Shown here one piece after another: positions 3,403-30,721 of a DNA stretch of 33,307 nucleotides (its first letter is position 1; each line of letters begins with the position of its first letter). The position numbers and the translations under genes are program-made. The notes below the pieces were generated by a model that ran no database searches, was not told the origin of the DNA, and worked only from the letters and a program-made list of their open reading frames with translations. This stretch comes from Dongibacter bovis (GTDB lineage: Bacteria > Bacillota > Negativicutes > Selenomonadales > Selenomonadaceae): contig CACWQW010000014.1 of assembly GCA_902763085.1 (NCBI GenBank), positions 1-33,307 on the forward strand, given 5' to 3'.

Positions 3403-4608
3403 TTATTTTACCTCAGCGGCGCCGAGCGGGCAGCCCTCGTTGAAGTTGCGGGCGTTCTCCATCGTCACCGCCGCGATGGCCTGGAGCGCCTCGCGCGTGA
3501 AGAATGCCGCATCCTCGCCCTCGTAGACGTCGAGCGCGACCGCGTGGAACTTGCCCTGCTTGAGCGCAGCGAGCAGCGCCTCCGTGTCGATGAGGCCGCC
3601 GCGCGCGGCGTTGACGAGCATGACATCGTCCTTCATGAGCGAGATGGCCTTCTCGTCGATGAGGTGGTATGTGCCGCCCTCGCCCATGATGAGCGGCGCA
3701 TGGATCGAGATGAGGTCAGACTTGCTCAGGACTTCCTCCTTCGAGGCGTACGTCAGCAGGCCCTCTTCCTCGAGCTTCTTGTTCGGGAACGCATCCCAGC
3801 CGATGACCGTCATGCCGTAGCCCTTGCAAATGCGTGCCATGCACTGGCCGATGCGGCCCGTGCCGAGGATGCCGGCGACCTTGTTGTGGAGGTCGACGCC
3901 GAGCAGGCCCGTGAGATCGAAGTTGTTGTCACGCACCTTGTTGTACGCCTTGTGCAGACGGCGGTTCGCCGCCTGGATCGTCGCCATGGCGTGCTCCGCC
4001 ACTGCGTACGGGGAGTAGGCCGGCACGCGCAGGACCGTGATGCCGTACTCTGCCGCCGCCTTCTTGTCGACGTTGTTGAAGCCGGCGCAGCGCAGGAGGA
4101 TCAGGCGGACGCCGCCGTCGTGCAGCTGCTCGATGACGTCGCGCGGAGCCTCGTCGTTGACGAAGATGCAGACGGCGTCATAGCCATTGGCGAGATGCGC
4201 CGTCTCGCTCGTCAGACGACTCGAGAAATATTTGAGCTCGACGTTGTACGTGCCCTCGCCCTTGTCCTTGGCGAGCTCGCTGAAGTAGAGGCGATCATAG
4301 TCCTTCGTGCCGAAGAAAGCGACCTTGAGGACGGGGACCTTCTTCTCCTTCGGGCCCATGGCGTCGAAGACCGCCTGGATCTTCTGTGCGGCCTCTTCCT
4401 CGTCGGGACCTTCCACCGTCACGTTGACCTTCGCGCCCTTGGCTGCATGGAGGTTCAGGATCTCGAGCACGTTGTTCCCCTGTGCGACTTCATGATCGGA
4501 TTCGAGCGTCACAGCCGCTCGCAGGCTGCTGCATGCCTGCGCGATCTGCGCGGCAGGGCGCGCATGGATACCGAGCGAGCAATTCACGACGACCTGGAAT
4601 TTTTTCAT
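3403..4608 (-). CDS. HPr phosphocarrier domain fused to a D-lactate dehydrogenase-like domain with an internal gap
   Basis: A 401-residue protein with two clear parts. Residues 1-85 are an HPr domain: LGIHARPAAQIAQ places His15 exactly where PEP-dependent phosphorylation occurs, and GNNVLEILNL aligns with the regulatory loop, with Asn46 in place of the Ser46 phosphorylated by HPr kinase. After a short linker (KEKKVP), residues 93-401 match the LdhA-type 2-hydroxyacid dehydrogenases: CIFVND, RCAGFNNVD, the NAD-binding GILGTGRIG (246-254), catalytic Arg336 in NAARGGLID, and Glu in DVYEGE (360-365). The text then jumps from DVYEGEDA straight to AFFTREALQAI, skipping about 31 residues that in E. 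coli LdhA include GHQ with the catalytic His. The frame stays open. The gene has its own promoter, an AGGAGG site and its own terminator, so it is monocistronic. Activity as a lactate dehydrogenase is doubtful as read. Confidence 0.88.
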   Translation of the reverse strand: MKKFQVVVNCSLGIHARPAAQIAQACSSLRAAVTLESDHEVAQGNNVLEILNLHAAKGAKVNVTVEGPDEEEAAQKIQAVFDAMGPKEKKVPVLKVAFFGTKDYDRLYFSELAKDKGEGTYNVELKYFSSRLTSETAHLANGYDAVCIFVNDEAPRDVIEQLHDGGVRLILLRCAGFNNVDKKAAAEYGITVLRVPAYSPYAVAEHAMATIQAANRRLHKAYNKVRDNNFDLTGLLGVDLHNKVAGILGTGRIGQCMARICKGYGMTVIGWDAFPNKKLEEEGLLTYASKEEVLSKSDLISIHAPLIMGEGGTYHLIDEKAISLMKDDVMLVNAARGGLIDTEALLAALKQGKFHAVALDVYEGEDAAFFTREALQAIAAVTMENARNFNEGCPLGAAEVK

Positions 4609-21068: not shown

Positions 21069-22556
21069 TTACCAGCCCATGACCTTCGAGACGGCATTCT
21101 GCCATCCATCATAGAGCGCGCAGCGCTGATCCTCGCTCATCTGCGGCTCGTAGCGAATCCCCTCATGCCAGAGGTCTTTGAGCTCTTCGACGTCCTTCCA
21201 GATGCCCATGGCAAGCCCAGCGAGATAGGCAGCGCCGAGGCCCGTCGTTTCCGTCGTGTAGGCGCGGATGACAGGCATGTTGAGGATGTCCGCCTGGAAC
21301 TGCATGAGCAAGTTGTTCTGCGCCGCACCGCCGTCGACCTTGAGCTGCGAGATCGGGGCCGCGACATCAGAGGCGAGCGCCTCGTAGACATCGCGCACCT
21401 GATAGGCGAGCGCCGCGAGCGCTGCGCGGATGATGTGCGCGCGCTGCGTGTCCTCCTTGAGTCCGATGATCATCCCCGAGGTCTTCGTATCCCAGTAGGG
21501 CGCAGACAGCCCACGGAACGACGGCACGAAGTACACGCCGCCCGTATCGGGCACGAGCTTCGACACCCATTCGGAATCCGGCATCGACTTTAAGATGCCG
21601 AGCCCATGCTTGAGCCATTCGAGGCTCGAGCCCGAGACGAGCATGCTGCCCTCGAGCGCGTACGTCACATCGTCGCCGATGGCCCAGGCGATCGTCGTGA
21701 TGAGGCCGTTCTGCGAGTGGATGATCTCCTTGCCCGTATTCATGAGGAGGAACGAGCCCTCTCCATACGAGTTTTTCGCCTCTCCCTTCTCGAAGCACGC
21801 CTGTCCGAAGAGATCCGCCTGCTGATTGCCGATGCACGCGGCGATGGGAATCGCCGCACCGAACCGCGTCGCATCCGTATAGCCGTAGAGGTGGCTCGAC
21901 GGATGCACCTCCGGCAGCATCGCGCGCGGAATGCGCAGATGGCGCAGGATCTCATCGTCCCAGCAGAGGTGCTTGAGGTGGAAGAGCATCGTGCGCGACG
22001 CGTTCGAGTAATCCGTCGCGAAGATCTCGCCCCCCGAGAGCTTCCACATGAGCCAAGTATCGATCGTGCCGAAGCAGAGGTCTCCCTTCTCCGCCATCTC
22101 CCGCGCGCCGAGCACATTGTCGAGCAGCCAGCAGATCTTCGTCCCGGAGAAATACGGATTGAGCACGAGCGACGTCTTCTGCCGGATCTCCTCCTGATAT
22201 CCCTGCTCCCGCAGATGCTCGCAGATGGGCTCCGTCTGCCGCGACTGCCAGCTGATGGCGGGATAGAGCGGCCGCCCCGTCTGACGGTTCCAGATGACGG
22301 TCGTCTCGCGCTGGTTCGTCACGGCGATTGCCGCCACCTCGCGGCTGTCGATGGCCGCGAGGCGCAGCGCCTCACGTGCCGTCCAGAGCTGCGTGCTCCA
22401 GATCTCCTCCGCATCCTGCTCGATCCATTCGGCATGCGGGGTGAACGTGCTGATCTTCTTTTCCGCGTAAGAGATCATCTCACCGCTGCGGTTGAATACG
22501 ACCGAGCGGTTCTTCACGGTACCGGAATCCAGTGCCAAGATATATTTTTTCTGCAT
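21069..22556 (-). CDS. Glycerol kinase paralogue with altered active site (FGGY family)
   Basis: A 495-residue FGGY carbohydrate kinase, close to GlpK over its whole length: NQRETTVIWN (R83, E84), [53 protein letters not shown] and [21 protein letters not shown]. Key positions differ. The phosphate-binding DQGTTSSR of GlpK reads DSGTVKNR (residues 10-17), and the catalytic-base motif GDQQ reads GNQQ, with Asn244 in place of Asp. The neighbouring glpK (23755-25263) keeps GDQQ and AGTTSNR. The paralogue may therefore be inactive or act on another substrate. ATG 22556 is chosen for AGGAGA just upstream; the frame is open to 22814, but that part crosses a terminator and a promoter. The gene is separated from glpF by a terminator and has its own -10. 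Confidence 0.88.
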   Translation of the reverse strand: MQKKYILALDSGTVKNRSVVFNRSGEMISYAEKKISTFTPHAEWIEQDAEEIWSTQLWTAREALRLAAIDSREVAAIAVTNQRETTVIWNRQTGRPLYPAISWQSRQTEPICEHLREQGYQEEIRQKTSLVLNPYFSGTKICWLLDNVLGAREMAEKGDLCFGTIDTWLMWKLSGGEIFATDYSNASRTMLFHLKHLCWDDEILRHLRIPRAMLPEVHPSSHLYGYTDATRFGAAIPIAACIGNQQADLFGQACFEKGEAKNSYGEGSFLLMNTGKEIIHSQNGLITTIAWAIGDDVTYALEGSMLVSGSSLEWLKHGLGILKSMPDSEWVSKLVPDTGGVYFVPSFRGLSAPYWDTKTSGMIIGLKEDTQRAHIIRAALAALAYQVRDVYEALASDVAAPISQLKVDGGAAQNNLLMQFQADILNMPVIRAYTTETTGLGAAYLAGLAMGIWKDVEELKDLWHEGIRYEPQMSEDQRCALYDGWQNAVSKVMGW

Positions 22557-22596
22557 AAAATCTCTCCTGCCCTGCATTCTGACTGCTCCAGCCAAT

Positions 22597-22617
22597 ATGT
22601 ATACACGTCTTATTATA
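22597..22617 (-). promoter_or_regulatory. -10 element and operator-like half-site for the glpK paralogue
   Basis: A perfect TATAAT (22612-22617) is followed by CGTGTATACAT (22597-22607). CGTGTAT also forms each arm of the palindrome over the glpA promoter at 30051-30068, so both may answer to the same regulator. The -35 is not clear. Confidence 0.45.
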
Positions 22618-22641
22618 CCATAACCTGACAAAATCTTACAT

Positions 22642-22761
22642 AAAAAAAGAGACGTTTGCACCGCTTCACTGAAAACTTCGGGACGCTCCGCCAAAAACGC
22701 GACGAAGTCACGATCTAGGACGAGCAATCTTCGTCCCCAAATGCGCCTCTTCCCTTTTTTT
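22642..22761. other. Symmetric structured element flanked by T-runs
   Basis: An outer stem (AGAGACG, 22648-22654, with CGCCTCT, 22744-22750, one G-T pair) encloses two further stems: ACTTCG/CGAAGT (22675-22680 with 22703-22708) and GGACGA/TCGTCC (22718-22723 with 22731-22736). Seven A precede it (22642-22648) and seven T follow shortly after (22755-22761), so either strand could terminate or form a compact RNA. It contains the 12-mer GGACGCTCCGCC (22681-22692) also found at 14862-14873. Confidence 0.45.
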
Positions 22762-22764
22762 GAC

Positions 22765-22806
22765 AAAAAAAAGTGGAAGTTTTCCGAACGAATCGGGAAA
22801 CTTCCA
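22765..22806 (-). terminator. Rho-independent terminator after glpF
   Basis: A stem of GGAAGTTT with AAACTTCC (22775-22782 with 22798-22805), extended by four weaker pairs, is followed on the minus strand by eight T (complement of 22765-22772). It ends the glpA-to-glpF operon. Confidence 0.88.
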
Positions 22807-22899
22807 AACAACAAGGGATAAAAGAGGGGTAATCAAGCCTTAAAATTGGGAGATGTAAAATGATTTATAGCAAACCCGCTTGCGCAGGTAGCTACCAGA

Positions 22900-23637
22900 T
22901 TAGAATGCGCCGAGTGCCGTAGCAACGACATAGGCTGCGCCTGCACCGCAGAGCGGAGCGAGGATAGGAACCCAAGCATAGGCCCAGTCAGAACCGCCCT
23001 TGCCAGCGATCGGGAGGATCGCATGCGCAATGCGAGGACCAAGGTCACGGGCGGGGTTCATTGCATAACCCGTCGGACCACCGAGGGAAAGGCCGAGTGC
23101 CCAGATAAGGACACCGACGATGTACGGGCCATAGCCCGGAACCATGTTGCCGACCGGCTTCGAGAAGATCATCCAGATGACGAACATCAGGAAGAACGTA
23201 GCGATGAACTCGCAGAGGAACGCCGGACCGAACTTACGGACAGCAGGCGCCGTGCAGAAGACACCGAGCTTCGCAGCGGGGTCTTTCGTGAGTTCCCAAT
23301 GCGGCAGATAAGCGAGCCAGACGATCGTGGCACCGAGGATGCCGCCGAGCAGCTGCACAATAGCCGTCATGATGAACTGCTGGAACGTGTAGATGCCGAC
23401 GAGCATCTTACCGAACGTGACGGCCGGGTTAAGGTCGCCCTGCGGTGCGCCGAGCGTCGTCGCAGTGAAGACACCGAGCGTAACCGCGAAACCCCATCCG
23501 ATCGCAATGTTGACCCAGCCAGATGCCTGGCCTTTCGATTTCTCCAGCGTCAGGTTGGCGCAAACGCCGCAACCAAAGACGAGGAGAACGGTGGTTCCAA
23601 TGAACTCGCCCAGAAGGTTTTCTGTTCCTGTGACCAT
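22900..23637 (-). CDS. glpF: Glycerol uptake facilitator (aquaglyceroporin)
   Basis: A 245-residue member of the major intrinsic protein family with six hydrophobic segments. It lets glycerol cross the inner membrane by diffusion, and GlpK then traps it. The first half-helix motif is DLNPAVTFG and the second is AMNPARDLGPR; the Asp and Arg after the second NPA are typical of glycerol channels as opposed to water channels. FIGTTVLLVFGCGVCAN at the N-terminus and GGPTGYAMNP also fit. It is the last gene of the glpA operon, after glpK and a short gap, and a strong terminator follows. Confidence 0.95.
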   Translation of the reverse strand: MVTGTENLLGEFIGTTVLLVFGCGVCANLTLEKSKGQASGWVNIAIGWGFAVTLGVFTATTLGAPQGDLNPAVTFGKMLVGIYTFQQFIMTAIVQLLGGILGATIVWLAYLPHWELTKDPAAKLGVFCTAPAVRKFGPAFLCEFIATFFLMFVIWMIFSKPVGNMVPGYGPYIVGVLIWALGLSLGGPTGYAMNPARDLGPRIAHAILPIAGKGGSDWAYAWVPILAPLCGAGAAYVVATALGAF

Positions 23638-23754: not shown

Positions 23755-25278
<1,524 letters not shown>

Positions 25279-25376: not shown

Positions 25377-25697
25377 TTAATAATCACCGGCAATCTTCTG
25401 CGCGAGGTCGAGGATCTTGCCCGCGTCTATCGTGGCGTAGAGATCCTTCGGTATCACAGCAGACTTGACATTGGGATACTTCACTTGAAGTTCCGGCAGG
25501 TTGGAAGCTGCCTGCGGTGCGAGGAGCATGACATCCGCAAAGGATGCTGCTTCCGCCACCTCATTGATCGGGTAAAAGCTCACCGAGCATGGATACCCGA
25601 GTCGGGCTGCCTCCGCCTCCATGCGCCTCACGAGTAGGTTCGTGGAGACGCCTGCCGAACAGAGCAGGATAATTCTTCGGACTTTCCCTTGAACCAT
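25377..25697 (-). CDS. Orphan PTS EIIB component (lactose/cellobiose type)
   Basis: A 106-residue cytosolic PTS IIB domain. The phosphocysteine loop is LLCSAGVSTNLLVRRM, with Cys13 at the end of the first beta strand as in cellobiose EIIB. The rest (ADVMLLAPQAASNLPEL, VIPKDLYATIDAGKILDLA) has the expected alpha/beta pattern and C-terminal helix. ATG 25697 is chosen because GAAGGGGG lies seven bases upstream; the frame runs further back into glpC. No EIIA or EIIC gene is nearby; the gene lies 38 bases after glpC and 113 before glpK, within the glycerol operon. Glycerol is not a PTS sugar, so a transport role is hard to see; a regulatory phospho-acceptor role is an inference. It belongs to the operon by direction and spacing. 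Confidence 0.85.
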   Translation of the reverse strand: MVQGKVRRIILLCSAGVSTNLLVRRMEAEAARLGYPCSVSFYPINEVAEAASFADVMLLAPQAASNLPELQVKYPNVKSAVIPKDLYATIDAGKILDLAQKIAGDY

Positions 25698-25735: not shown

Positions 25736-26962
25736 TTATTGATAGGCTTTCGCCAATATCTCGATGGGATGGCAGGGCTCTGCCTGCGTCCCATGTTGAA
25801 TCTGCATCCTGCAGGTCGGGCACTCGCAGATGACATCATCCGCATGCGCCGCCTTGATCCGCGAGAAGAGCTTCTCGCCGATTTTCATGGAGATCTCGTA
25901 TTTATCTTTCTTGAAGCCGTAGTTGCCGCTCATGCCGCAGCAGCCAGCATCTGCAAGCTCCACCTTCGCCCCCGGCAGGTGGCGGAAGATCGAGACAACC
26001 GGCGTACCAATGCCCGCAGCCTTGAGATGGCAGGGAACGTGGTAGAGGAACTTCTCGTTCACGGGGGCGAGTTTCGTGTTGAACTTGCCCTCGGCGTCAA
26101 GCATCTCGAGGAACTCGAACGCATCGTAGACGTTCTCGCCGGCTTCCTTCATCGCTTCCTCGCCGAAGAGCTCTTCGTACTCCTTGCGGAGCATGAGCGA
26201 GCAGCTCGTGCAGGTGGCGACGACGGGGATGCCCTGGCGCTTCCAATAGAGGATGCGCTCGACGTTGTTCTCCGCGTGCTCATGTGCCTCATCGAGATAG
26301 CCGGTGACGACGAGCGGCGAACCACAGCAGTTGAACGCCTCGTCGAGGATGACTTCATAGCCGTTCGCATTCATGACCTTGACGAACGCCACGCCGATAT
26401 GCGGCTCGTTGTAGTTGATCGAGCAGCCAGGGAAGAAGACGACTTTCTTGTCGGAAGACGGCTGCTTGATCTTGCGGAACTCCTGGGCAAAGGTATTCGA
26501 TGCATAGGCGGGCATCTCACGCTCGCCGGCGATGCCCATCGAATCGAACATGCCGAGGCTCCGACCGATCTTCATGCCGAGGTTCGCGAACGTCGTGCCA
26601 AGCGGCAGTGCGTTGACGAGCTTCGCCATCTTCTCCGCGTGAGCGAGCATATCGTCGCGCTGCGGATGCGGATGCTTCTTATAATACTCTGCGCGCTGCA
26701 GCATGTTGAGCGTGGAGACGGCGACGCCGGACGGGCAGGCGCGGTCACAGCTCTTGCAGTTCGAGCAGAAATCCAAAGAGAGCTCCGTGTCGTCCTCGGA
26801 GAAGTGCATGCGCCCGTGTGCCGGTGCAACGAGCTTCGGCCCGCGGTAGTCCTTGGCAGCTGCCATGACGGGGCAGTTCGCCATGCACGACGTACAGGAG
26901 AGGCAGTGATCGCCACTGTAGATGGCTCTCTCTTCTTCATCAATCATTGTCTTATCGCTCAT
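25736..26962 (-). CDS. glpC: Anaerobic glycerol-3-phosphate dehydrogenase subunit C
   Basis: GlpC anchors the GlpAB dehydrogenase to the membrane and passes electrons on through iron-sulphur clusters. The 408 residues have two ferredoxin-type motifs near the N-terminus (Cys20, 23, 26, 30 in CLSCTSCMANCP; Cys66, 69, 72, 76 in CSNCKSCDRACP). Two cysteine-rich CCG domains follow (FNCCGSPLV and AGCCGMSGNYG). Length is normal. It follows glpB after 18 bases and precedes the orphan EIIB. The protein lacks membrane spans, as is usual for GlpC. Confidence 0.96.
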   Translation of the reverse strand: MSDKTMIDEEERAIYSGDHCLSCTSCMANCPVMAAAKDYRGPKLVAPAHGRMHFSEDDTELSLDFCSNCKSCDRACPSGVAVSTLNMLQRAEYYKKHPHPQRDDMLAHAEKMAKLVNALPLGTTFANLGMKIGRSLGMFDSMGIAGEREMPAYASNTFAQEFRKIKQPSSDKKVVFFPGCSINYNEPHIGVAFVKVMNANGYEVILDEAFNCCGSPLVVTGYLDEAHEHAENNVERILYWKRQGIPVVATCTSCSLMLRKEYEELFGEEAMKEAGENVYDAFEFLEMLDAEGKFNTKLAPVNEKFLYHVPCHLKAAGIGTPVVSIFRHLPGAKVELADAGCCGMSGNYGFKKDKYEISMKIGEKLFSRIKAAHADDVICECPTCRMQIQHGTQAEPCHPIEILAKAYQ

Positions 26963-26980: not shown

Positions 26981-28243
26981 TTACATCATCGCGGCCTTGT
27001 ATGCCGATGCCAGAGCCACGCCGTTGCCGGAGTGCTCGAAGCAGAAGTCATAGCCACCGAGATTGCGTCCCACGACATACACATTATCGAGGACACGCTT
27101 GCCGCTCTCGTCCACCGGACGGAGTGTCTCATCCGTGAGGATACCGGTCTTGGCAAAGCCCTGAGGCTTGTTGGAGAAAAGCTCCTTGTTCGACCAGTTC
27201 TCTTCGCCCTTGACGAAGTAGACCGGCAGATCGAAAATCATTTCCTTCGGCTGCTCGAAGTCGCGCATCGTGATGCCGCCGCTGTAGAAGCCGCCCGTCG
27301 CGAGGATGAACTTCTTCGCGTAGTAGCGCTTCTGGTTCGATGCCGTCTGTGCGATGACTGCCGTCGCCTGCGTGCCGTCCTTCTCAGCGCCCACGACCTT
27401 CGTGTTCTCGACGATGTCGACACCGAGCTCGCGCAGGCTGTCGATGAGGAGCGCCTGCAGGCGCATGCCGTTCACGGACGGCGGCAGGCAGGTCGTCTCG
27501 ACGACGTCCGTGCCGACGCGGCTGCTGATCGTCTGATAGCAAGCGTGGCCCTTCGTGCCGAGCACCTGCGGCACGACGAAGAGCACGTCGGTCGTATTGC
27601 CGTTCTGCAGGGACTCTGCTTTCAAGAGCTGCTTGGAGAAGGAGCTCGTCCCCTCGTCCGTGTCCATCCAGCGTGCTACATCCTGGGTCGTGATATCACG
27701 GCCACCAGTGAGACCTGTCTCGACCTCGAGGACCTCATAGGATTTGTCCTCGCCGAGGGACTTCTTGAGGTTCTCTACCATGATGTCACCGTAGAAATCC
27801 TTGAGGCCCTTGATGCCGACGATGACGATCCTCTTCTTGCCCGGGAAGACCTCAGAGCCCGAAAGGGAATGCGGAGCGAAGCAGGTCGGCTTCAGCGTGC
27901 CGACAGCCGTCGGCACCATCATCTGACGGTCGAGGGATCCGTGATACGGGATGTGGTTCTTCCGCGCCACCGCCGTGAAGAAATCGATGGATTCCTCCAG
28001 CGCCTTCGTACCGATTTTCTTATAGGGATGATCTGCGGGCAGATTCTCGATCGCGGCGAGCGGATTCTCCACCGCGTTGTGGTTCTCATCAAAGCCGAGC
28101 ACATCGATGACACCGCTGTTCAGTGTCAGCGTCCCTTCACCATAGGTCAGGAGCGTCACCGACTTGCCGCGCTTGGCGCTCGCGAGTGCGGCGATGAGTC
28201 CGGCAAAGCCGCCCCCGATGACGACTACATCTGAACGAATCAT
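26981..28243 (-). CDS. glpB: Anaerobic glycerol-3-phosphate dehydrogenase subunit B
   Basis: A 420-residue flavoprotein. The N-terminal dinucleotide site is VVVIGGGFAGLIAALASAK (residues 6-24), and the chain ends with NVYVVGRNLGGYDFCFEHSGNGVALAS, the family's C-terminal FAD contact region. ATGGFYSGGI in the middle is also typical. GlpB works with GlpA and GlpC to oxidise glycerol-3-phosphate to dihydroxyacetone phosphate under anaerobic conditions. Its ATG overlaps the glpA stop by four bases, giving coupled translation. Length is normal. Confidence 0.95.
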   Translation of the reverse strand: MIRSDVVVIGGGFAGLIAALASAKRGKSVTLLTYGEGTLTLNSGVIDVLGFDENHNAVENPLAAIENLPADHPYKKIGTKALEESIDFFTAVARKNHIPYHGSLDRQMMVPTAVGTLKPTCFAPHSLSGSEVFPGKKRIVIVGIKGLKDFYGDIMVENLKKSLGEDKSYEVLEVETGLTGGRDITTQDVARWMDTDEGTSSFSKQLLKAESLQNGNTTDVLFVVPQVLGTKGHACYQTISSRVGTDVVETTCLPPSVNGMRLQALLIDSLRELGVDIVENTKVVGAEKDGTQATAVIAQTASNQKRYYAKKFILATGGFYSGGITMRDFEQPKEMIFDLPVYFVKGEENWSNKELFSNKPQGFAKTGILTDETLRPVDESGKRVLDNVYVVGRNLGGYDFCFEHSGNGVALASAYKAAMM

Positions 28244-29922
28244 TGCGCATTTCCCCCATTCACATTGAATACCAGCTCATACAGCCCGCGCGTCATCTCG
28301 ACTTCGCGGATCGTACGACCCATGAGGACCGGACGGATCCCCTTCCAGCGTCCCTGGAGGAATTCTTTCATCTGTCCGAGCGAATCCTTGCAAATCTCAT
28401 CGTGCCCGCATTTCGCGAACACGCTCGCGCTCCTGAGTGCGCAGAAGTTCGCCTGGCACGTGCCCATGCCGAGACGCGTCCGGCGGCGCACATCGTTGAT
28501 CTTGTAGCTCGAGAGTTCCTTGGCGATCTCCTCGACCTCTGCGCGCGTGACGTTCTCGCACTCGCAGATGATCTCGCGCTTCTCCGGCTCTCTCTTGAGC
28601 GTATCGACCACGCGGGCGAAACGCTCGGGGCCGAGGCGCGTCGCCGCGAGGTTCGTGCCGTAGGATGGGAAGTACTTGCGTGCTGCTTTCTTGTCCTCCT
28701 CGGAGACCTGCGGGACGAGCGGCTCTTCCGCCGTGCGGCATTTCTCGTGGTTGCCGAGCTTCGCGCAGACCTGGTCGGACATGCGCTCCGCCATCAGGCG
28801 GTACGTCGTGAACTTGCCGCCCACGATCGTGAACATACCCTTAAGGCCGTCCTGCTTCTCGTGGTCGACGACTGCGAAGCCGCGCGATGCGCCGCGCCCC
28901 GATGCGCCTCCCGGCGGCATGTAGAGCGGACGGCTGCCCGCGAAGCAGCGAAGCAGGCGGTAGTCGCGCAGATTCTCGAACGTCTGCTCACCGATGGAGA
29001 GGAGCTTCTCGACCTCTTCGCGCGACGTGCTCGTATCCTCTGCATCGGGGATGCTCATCGACGTCGTGCCGAGGATCGTGATGGAACCGTGCGGGACGAA
29101 GATATCGCCGTCCGAAGACTTGTGCAGGCGGTTCACGACGTGGTTCGCGATGCGCTGGTTGAACGCGAGGAGCGTGCCCTTATCCGGCTGGACGCCGACC
29201 TCGAGGCCCGCCATCTCCGCGATCTTGCCTGCCCAGCCGCCGCCGGCGTTCACGAGGATATCGCAGCCGATCTCGTACTCCTCGCCAGAGAAGTAGTCGC
29301 GCACCTTGATGCCGTGGACTTCATCGCCCTCGCGCAGGATGCCGATGACCTCCGTGTACGTCTTGAGGCGGCCGCCGTAGCGCTTCGCGCTGTCGACGTT
29401 CTGCCAGCTCATGCGAAAGCCGTCGATCGCGGCATCCGGCACGAGGTAAGCGGAGACGACATGCTTCGAGAGACGCGGCTCCAGATGGAAAGCTTCATCT
29501 AAAGAAATGTGCTTCGCCTCGATGCCGCTCGTCTTGCAGCCCTCGACCCAGGCCTGCTCATAGTCCGGGTCATCGCTGTCAAGCCGCACGAACATGCCGC
29601 CCGAAGCCTCGACGCAGCTCTTGCCGATCTTGCGGAGGATCGTATTCTCCTCAATGCACTCCTTCGCTGCCTCCTGATCCTTCACTGCATAGCGTCCACC
29701 GCTGTGCAGCAGGCCATGATAACGCGAGCTGGCGCCGTTGATGAGGTCGCGTTTCTCAACGAGCATGACATCCACGCCACGCATTGCGAGGTCACGCAGG
29801 ATTCCTACGCCCGTAGCGCCGCCGCCGATGACAACGACTGTTGCTTTTTCCATCGTGAAACTCCCCTTCTTCGTTCCGGTCTTGTTGTGGAAGCGCGGAT
29901 GGAACCGCATGTGCGTCTTCAT
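28240..29922 (-). CDS. glpA: Anaerobic glycerol-3-phosphate dehydrogenase subunit A with N-terminal extension
   Basis: The catalytic FAD subunit that oxidises glycerol-3-phosphate. FAD binding is in VVVIGGGATGVGILRDLAMRG (residues 29-49), followed by RDLINGASSRYHGLLHSGGRYA, the hallmark of GlpA/GlpD. The C-terminal part holds a BFD-like [2Fe-2S] domain: CECENVTRAE, then GMGTCQANFC. The start was decided from the sequence: ATG 29922 has a perfect AAGGAGG five bases upstream, and the next 23 codons are strongly G/C in third position, so they are coding. The result is an unusual basic, His-containing extension (MKTHMRFHPRFHNKTGTKKG) before the normal GlpA start at Met24 (29853, which has its own GGGGAG). 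The protein is 560 residues from 29922 and 537 from 29853. It is the first gene of the operon, with a promoter and palindrome about 130 bases upstream. Confidence 0.93.
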   Translation of the reverse strand: MKTHMRFHPRFHNKTGTKKGSFTMEKATVVVIGGGATGVGILRDLAMRGVDVMLVEKRDLINGASSRYHGLLHSGGRYAVKDQEAAKECIEENTILRKIGKSCVEASGGMFVRLDSDDPDYEQAWVEGCKTSGIEAKHISLDEAFHLEPRLSKHVVSAYLVPDAAIDGFRMSWQNVDSAKRYGGRLKTYTEVIGILREGDEVHGIKVRDYFSGEEYEIGCDILVNAGGGWAGKIAEMAGLEVGVQPDKGTLLAFNQRIANHVVNRLHKSSDGDIFVPHGSITILGTTSMSIPDAEDTSTSREEVEKLLSIGEQTFENLRDYRLLRCFAGSRPLYMPPGGASGRGASRGFAVVDHEKQDGLKGMFTIVGGKFTTYRLMAERMSDQVCAKLGNHEKCRTAEEPLVPQVSEEDKKAARKYFPSYGTNLAATRLGPERFARVVDTLKREPEKREIICECENVTRAEVEEIAKELSSYKINDVRRRTRLGMGTCQANFCALRSASVFAKCGHDEICKDSLGQMKEFLQGRWKGIRPVLMGRTIREVEMTRGLYELVFNVNGGNAQ

Positions 29923-30050
29923 CGGCGCCTCCTTATGAATTTGCAAACAATTCACGAAAGAATGATAGTAACGACAACCTCACGGTATCGTTCGTGCTCT
30001 CAAAACGTTCTTTCCTTGTTTTCCTCGGATTCGGAACGTTATTTCGTTTA

Positions 30051-30068
30051 CGTGTATTATGATACACG
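30051..30068. promoter_or_regulatory. Operator-like palindrome over the glpA -10
   Basis: CGTGTAT-TATG-ATACACG is a perfect inverted repeat of 7-base arms covering the -10 element of the glpA promoter, the position expected for a repressor site. The divergent XRE protein is a candidate ligand; a distant GlpR is equally possible. Confidence 0.6.
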
Positions 30069-30087
30069 AGATGAAACACGTAGTCAA
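30059..30087 (-). promoter_or_regulatory. Sigma-A promoter of the glp operon
   Basis: TTGACT (30082-30087), a 17-base spacer and TATCAT (30059-30064) on the minus strand. The glpA leader would be about 130 bases long. Confidence 0.72.
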
Positions 30088-30202
30088 TACGAAATCGCAT
30101 TTTTTAATCATATTTTTTCGTATTTTTCTCCATTTGTCTGAAAAATAGTGTTATTCCATCTAAACGTTATATTGTATTCCAATACGAAAATCAATCGCAT
30201 TA
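30085..30202 (+). repeat. Direct repeat CAATACGAAA...TCGCATT in the glp control region
   Basis: Copy 1 (30085-30101) reads CAATACGAAATCGCATT; copy 2 (30180-30201) has the same halves with AATCA-type extra bases between them. A reversed TTTCGTATT also occurs at about 30116-30124, and GTATTCCAATAC (30174-30185) is a small inverted repeat. Copy 1 touches the glpA -35, so these may be regulator sites. Confidence 0.4.
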
Positions 30203-30391: not shown

Positions 30392-30721
30392 ATGACGCGC
30401 GAAGACTATATCAAATCCCTCATCAAATCCCACGGCTACACGCTCAAGGCGTTCGCCCAGCAGATTTCCATGCCGTATACGACGCTGCTTTCCATCCTCA
30501 ACGGCTCCATCGGCGGCGCCGCCATGGACAACGTCCTCAAGATCTGCCATGCGCTCAACGTGCGCATCGAGGAACTCGATCAGATATCGAGCACGGGGCA
30601 GCCCGGCTCCCACCTCCCCGGAGCGGGAGGCGACGTCACGGACGACAGCCTCATCGCTCTCATCCGCGACCTGCCGCCGGAAAAAAAGATCGCACTAAAA
30701 ATCCTGCTCACGAACCTGTGA
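30392..30721 (+). CDS. XRE-family helix-turn-helix transcriptional regulator
   Basis: A 109-residue DNA-binding protein. Residues 5-64 form a Cro/CI-type HTH (IKSHGYTLKAFAQQISM, then PYTTLLSILNGSIGG and NVLKICHALNVRIEELDQI). A Gly/Pro-rich linker and a short helical C-terminus (SLIALIRDLPPEKKIALKIL) follow and may allow dimerisation. GGGAGGG lies five bases before the ATG. It is divergent from the glp operon and shares its control region, so it is a candidate regulator of glycerol genes; the target is not shown by the sequence. The stop codon lies inside the terminator hairpin. Confidence 0.85.
   Translation: MTREDYIKSLIKSHGYTLKAFAQQISMPYTTLLSILNGSIGGAAMDNVLKICHALNVRIEELDQISSTGQPGSHLPGAGGDVTDDSLIALIRDLPPEKKIALKILLTNL

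Follow-up and report, generated by a model that had tools for sequence, protein, structure and literature searches.

A Lac/Cel-type PTS EIIB encoded in the glycerol operon of Selenomonas-type bacteria, and its possible regulatory role

Within what appears to be a glycerol operon, bacteria of the Selenomonas, Mitsuokella and Megamonas types carry a gene for a lone EIIB protein of the PTS. With moderate confidence, we propose that this EIIB is a regulatory phosphocarrier for the use of glycerol and dihydroxyacetone, and not part of a transporter. The gene was studied in 33,307 nucleotides from Dongibacter bovis (the window, meaning this whole stretch; its genome, G000, is the window genome). Phosphate would travel from PEP through EI and HPr to a Lac/Cel-type EIIA encoded elsewhere, and from there to Cys13 of EIIB. 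Dephosphorylated EIIB would then signal that PTS sugars are being taken up, and phosphorylated EIIB that they are not; in one of these states, EIIB would bind a three-carbon kinase and adjust its step, most likely that of GlpK and possibly, in G158, that of DhaK/DhaL, and glycerol use would be throttled while better sugars flow. We infer all of these steps: the phosphorylation, the EIIA donor, the contact with GlpK or DhaKL and the direction of its effect. Rumen glycerol comes largely from fat breakdown. GlpK of the Selenomonas type lacks the site that HPr phosphorylates elsewhere, which raises the question of what sets the preference between PTS sugars and glycerol. A dedicated EIIB, selected yet optional among close relatives, provides a natural plus/minus contrast, and it is a small, purifiable protein. 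The open-access literature searched, a corpus that leaves most subscription papers outside, yielded no paper that describes an EIIB as part of a glycerol operon.

The EIIB gene and the operon around it

The reading frame is complete from ATG through stop, with AAGGGGG preceding the ATG (Table 1). Two observations place its product in the Lac/Cel family of PTS EIIBs: a match to PF02302 (PTS_IIB) of 35.7 bits, above the Pfam gathering cut-off of 23.6, and an AlphaFold2 model (pLDDT 90.0) with the fold of IIB-chitobiose, the top PDB matches being 2wy2 (TM 0.88, 38% identity) and 1iib. The nearest NCBIfam models are PRK10499 and TIGR00853, the former scoring 62 bits, less than its own cut-off of 157. 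The loop CxxGxST, with C13 as the putative phosphorylatable cysteine, is intact in all 19 glp-type EIIB sequences. Reading frame, PF02302, fold and neighbours agree that the lone EIIB with an intact phosphocysteine loop, described between glpC and glpK in the first-pass annotation, is real.

Table 1. Features of the window in and near the glycerol operon
Feature	Position	Strand	Basis
glpF-like MIP channel	22900..23637	-	best NCBIfam model LarD, below its own cut-off
glpK, glycerol kinase; Ser at the HPr-phosphorylated His position	23755..25263	-	family match and alignment
Lone Lac/Cel-family PTS EIIB, 106 aa, loop C13-S-A-G-V-S-T	25377..25697	-	ORF, Pfam, fold model, alignment
glpC, anaerobic glycerol-3-phosphate dehydrogenase subunit C	25736..26962	-	NF008369, 427 bits
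glpB	26981..28243	-	TIGR03378 above cut-off
glpA	28240..29955	-	NCBIfam match and alignment with relatives
Operon promoter, conserved sigma-70-like, TTGACT-17-TATCAT, flanked by TTTCGTA/ACGAAAT repeats	30059..30087	-
Divergent XRE-type HTH protein, also in EIIB-less relatives	30392..30721	+	Pfam, locus comparison

On one strand the genes follow each other in the order glpA-B-C-EIIB-glpK-glpF, with 38 bases between glpC and EIIB and 113 between EIIB and glpK. No terminator-like site was found on the minus strand inside the operon, and the region upstream of glpA has one strong promoter-like site, of the sigma-70 type; EIIB would thus be co-transcribed with glpABC and glpKF. The start codon of glpA is probably internal, as the alignment with relatives starts at MEKATVVVIGGG. 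The TTTCGTA/ACGAAAT repeats around the promoter (window 30040-30120) are conserved and likely form an operator. Promoter and upstream repeats are also present in the EIIB-less relatives G278 and G292, which leaves them outside the EIIB story. Several of eight loci have a predicted hairpin in the EIIB-glpK gap, but in others it is weak, and its sequence is not shared; it was dropped.

Downstream of glpF, the window also codes for a GlpK paralogue (21069-22814, minus strand) about 55% identical to GlpK. Put forward as one possible target at first pass, it is found near some of the EIIB-bearing operons only and is missing near many.

Distribution, gene order and selection

A profile made from this EIIB clade matched 32 of 380 genomes of the class at E <= 1e-22. 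Of these, 22 scored at least 139.6 bits and the remaining ones no more than 89.6; judged by sequence, the EIIB of the glp operon is a distinct clade. All 22 genomes belong to one family, so that the gene is by no means a peculiarity of a single strain. Among 398 genomes sampled evenly across the phylum, scores above 180 bits were confined to the window genome and G173, the next score being 91. In a tree, 18 glp-type rows came together with support 96/92 and the G158 sequence fell just outside, many other branches being weak.

In 21 of the 22 clade genomes glpK comes directly after EIIB, which ties a PTS protein to glpK at the level of gene order, and glpC lies directly before EIIB in 20, giving the order glpC-EIIB-glpK in 20/22. 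This order, whose conservation across Negativicutes the first-pass annotation advised checking, is kept across genera of one family and not in the class as a whole (22/380 genomes). The two exceptions on the glpC side are G021, where EIIB stands at the start of a contig, and G158. In the latter, dhaK-dhaL follow an EIIB of 58% identity and share its strand; since this EIIB is the only one of the clade found in that genome and glpK starts at base 614 of another contig, it does not immediately precede glpK. Sixteen named loci, from assemblies of Selenomonas bovis, S. ruminantium, Mitsuokella and Megamonas, give a similar picture (as they probably overlap with the class genomes, they do not count as an independent set): 15 of them show glpC-EIIB-glpK, with the divergent XRE gene in the same 15, and in the sixteenth, L052, the contig starts with EIIB, followed by glpK. 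In G021/L052 the order is EIIB-glpK-glpF-dhaK-dhaL-dhaM. Adjoining dhaKL in G158 and lined up with dhaKLM in G021/L052, EIIB stays with three-carbon kinases. A glpK gene was seen in all 22 EIIB-bearing genomes and a Dak1 match in 20 (all except G173 and G280), making GlpK the commonest partner.

In seven relatives, among them the close relatives G278 and G292, glpC adjoins glpK and there is no EIIB. That sister genomes have the same operon without it indicates that EIIB modulates, and does not drive, glycerol use. The glpC-glpK gap of G292 (L133:4841-5065) has a stretch ending GTGGATTGAAAC, possibly akin to a piece of a CRISPR repeat.

The gene is under purifying selection, as read from its codons: of 17 pairs formed with the window gene, 9 have a finite dS, and their dN/dS ranges from 0.02 to 0.15; dS is saturated in the other 8. 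Conservation extends across genera up to the final residues, GDY. The recurrent gene order (20/22), together with a dN/dS far below 1, puts the placement of EIIB beyond chance. Selection has kept a protein that differs from its transporter cousins. In a comparison of 19 distinct glp-type with 28 cel-type EIIB sequences, the former carry G60A (19/19), D83P (19/19), G92A (18/19) and G88A (17/19), whereas the latter retain these positions in 24 to 28 of 28; E29, R32, Q100 and the terminal Tyr are also fixed in the glp type. The conserved GPQ, D83 and YGxxDG of transporter EIIBs are therefore not what glp-type EIIBs display: by alignment, the reactive loop is retained and the positions fixed in transporters are altered.

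Phosphate donor and candidate targets

EIIB is not encoded with an identifiable EIIC or EIIA, nor was it seen to serve one; its neighbours are glpC and glpK. On its contig there is no match to the Lac/Cel EIIA family PF02255, and no EIIC (PF02378) among seven listed of nine genome matches, as the first reading of the window had it. A candidate donor, which that reading advised seeking, does exist elsewhere, with three PF02255 matches on contigs C96, C12 and C10. Throughout the family, PF02255 EIIAs occur in 22/22 genomes with EIIB and in 60/167 without it, and, among genomes with glpB, in 21/21 and 17/70, respectively; these counts ignore phylogeny, and common descent may account for the co-occurrence. 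In genus g5, EIIB and EIIA are present together in G158 and both absent from G010.

G141 (99% complete) has a clade EIIB and a single Lac/Cel EIIA, the latter among unrelated genes. No Lac/Cel EIIB or EIIC was found in the 8-kb stretch around that EIIA, and none of the six EIICs located, out of seven matches, is Lac/Cel-like (best E 0.012). As far as these six go, a transporter is not required at the end of the relay in G141, and the gene content of this genome favours a relay ending at EIIB, without sugar pumping. In the window genome, likewise, the EIIA of C12 has no Lac/Cel EIIB or EIIC within its 8.4-kb stretch (a stand-alone EIIA-Glc adjoins it: L112:4884-5405 and, for the lone EIIA, 4114-4428, minus strand). 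EIIAs without Lac/Cel EIIB or EIIC in the fetched stretch were met in G000, G004, G005, G008, G141, G142, G158, G280, G283 and others. The idea of a strictly paired lone EIIA was rejected: the EIIAs examined in G006 and G287 all belong to operons (G001-G003 being outside this comparison), and in the loci read the lone EIIA has no conserved neighbourhood.

As for the general phosphocarrier, HPr matches are present in 24/24 genomes examined, the only one of G004 lying in a 612-aa frame. In the window genome, the frames of the free HPr and of dhaK, on contigs C56 and C59 (L184, L181), are broken, probably through assembly errors of a draft genome. HPr domains are also found in larger proteins. 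In the window (3403-4608, minus strand), one (PF00381, 72.5 bits), with its His region SLGIHARPAA intact, is fused to a D-2-hydroxyacid dehydrogenase, and the HPr matches of G005, G016, G275 and G158, whose open frames are about 450-520 aa long, may represent the same fusion. In G265, an HPr-PAS-sigma-54-activation-domain fusion (L183:1987-3204, plus strand), with similar frames in relatives, lies about 2 kb from a free HPr gene; it is a possible PTS-sensing enhancer-binding protein.

At the other end of the relay, synteny makes GlpK the likeliest target. Sixteen GlpK sequences of the family were compared, eight from genomes with EIIB and eight from genomes without it, and no residue separates the two groups. 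The His that HPr phosphorylates in the activation loop of Gram-positive GlpK is missing from 16/16 and from the paralogue, which argues against HPr-type control, with or without EIIB. The thought that EIIB replaces HPr at this site was rejected, the His being missing from EIIB-less genomes too. Nor is the E. coli stretch PGIETTERN, which we take to be the EIIA-Glc contact, conserved in this GlpK. Among the targets first suggested, GlpK stands as the constant partner, albeit with no residue that tracks EIIB, and the XRE protein loses ground: it is also present in G278, G292 and G261, which have no EIIB, and its presence with the glp promoter in such relatives argues against a dedicated XRE target.

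The XRE protein belongs to a wider alternative, in which phospho- or dephospho-EIIB controls a regulator of the glycerol genes, either the divergent XRE protein or a PRD activator encoded elsewhere. We regard this as rather unlikely, although PRD proteins are at hand: they occur in 15/15 EIIB-bearing genomes examined, 14 of which (all but G158) have frames about 920-960 aa long, and one such frame lies on the glp contig in G173 (about 5 kb away) and in G004 (about 30 kb away). The G173 frame, the sole one scanned, is LevR-like, with sigma-54 activation, PRD and EIIA-Man domains. By analogy, an action of EIIB through them would have precedent, EIIB proteins or domains that act with PRD regulators being known (PMC11537053). 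Against this, PRD frames of such length are also found in the EIIB-less G013, G016 and G023, the glp promoter is sigma-70-like and shared, as is the XRE gene, with EIIB-less relatives, and the sigma-54 consensus occurs in the window no more often than by chance (30 matches vs 29 expected).

It is harder still to credit that EIIB is an auxiliary transporter subunit, merely co-expressed with the glycerol genes, that hands phosphate to a sugar or glycoside (such as a glycerol glycoside) with the help of a Lac/Cel EIIC whose gene lies elsewhere. To be sure, its Cys loop is intact and most EIIB-bearing genomes examined contain cel-type EIIC operons. Yet the complete Lac/Cel operons found in the window genome carry their own EIIBs, and no complete transporter clearly lacking one, which would speak against a regulatory role, was seen there; hardly any glp-type sequence keeps G60 (of GPQ), D83, or G88 and G92 (of YGxxDG); and G141 has no Lac/Cel EIIC among the six of seven located. 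Together with the gene order kept across genera, these are the observations that uphold the regulatory role suggested at first pass.

We give little credence to a third possibility, namely that EIIB works chiefly with DhaKLM, the PTS-dependent dihydroxyacetone kinase, and that adjacency to glpK stems from a shared pathway; a Dha partner was not among the suggestions made at first pass. EIIB does adjoin dhaKL in G158, forms an apparent operon with dhaKLM in G021, and is accompanied by a Dak1 match in 20/22 genomes; however, two genomes that are 99% complete, G173 and G280, carry EIIB and do not figure in the list with that match, and in the window genome dhaKLM is on another contig. Finally, a passenger gene, a transporter EIIB that stayed behind in the operon and now has no role, is very improbable in view of its low dN/dS and of its conservation down to GDY across genera, even if seven relatives manage with the same operon without it.

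Comparison with known PTS control of glycerol use

PTS proteins restrain the glycerol kinase of enteric bacteria, through EIIA, and drive that of Gram-positive bacteria, through HPr. The proposed phosphocarrier is built like neither. In family (PF02302), fold, length and phosphocysteine loop it is of the type of the Lac/Cel EIIBs ChbB and CelA (PDB 2wy2, 1iib, 1h9c), and the same type of EIIA is expected as its donor; unlike these, it has no EIIC or EIIA in its operon, which is a glycerol operon, and it is altered at G60, D83 and mostly G88 and G92.

In function, the closest precedents are EIIA proteins that inhibit GlpK: EIIA-Glc of E. coli and KPN00353 of Klebsiella bind and inhibit the kinase (PMC5770620). 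There too a PTS EII protein is coupled to glycerol kinase, for inducer exclusion; here, by contrast, it is an EIIB of the Lac/Cel type, with a Cys, encoded in the glp operon itself, and PGIETTERN is not conserved. Control by HPr similarly tunes kinase activity to the phosphorylation state of the PTS; its target His, which lies in a YHFF motif of Gram-positive GlpK (PMC11537053), is missing from the GlpK of this family, with EIIB or without it.

DhaKLM resembles the proposed relay in being a transporter-free PTS branch that feeds three-carbon metabolism, and it is adjacent to EIIB in G158 and G021. It differs in that DhaM is a protein of the EIIA-Man type; no EIIB is known to be part of the DhaKLM enzyme. 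Tentatively, we picture a third PTS route over glycerol, distinct from inhibition by EIIA-Glc and from phosphorylation by HPr, in which a dedicated ex-transporter EIIB may act as a phospho-switch of GlpK (and of DhaKL in one lineage) while being encoded in the operon that it would regulate. If this is true, an EIIB of transporters would have become a protein whose sole task is signalling, here for glycerol.
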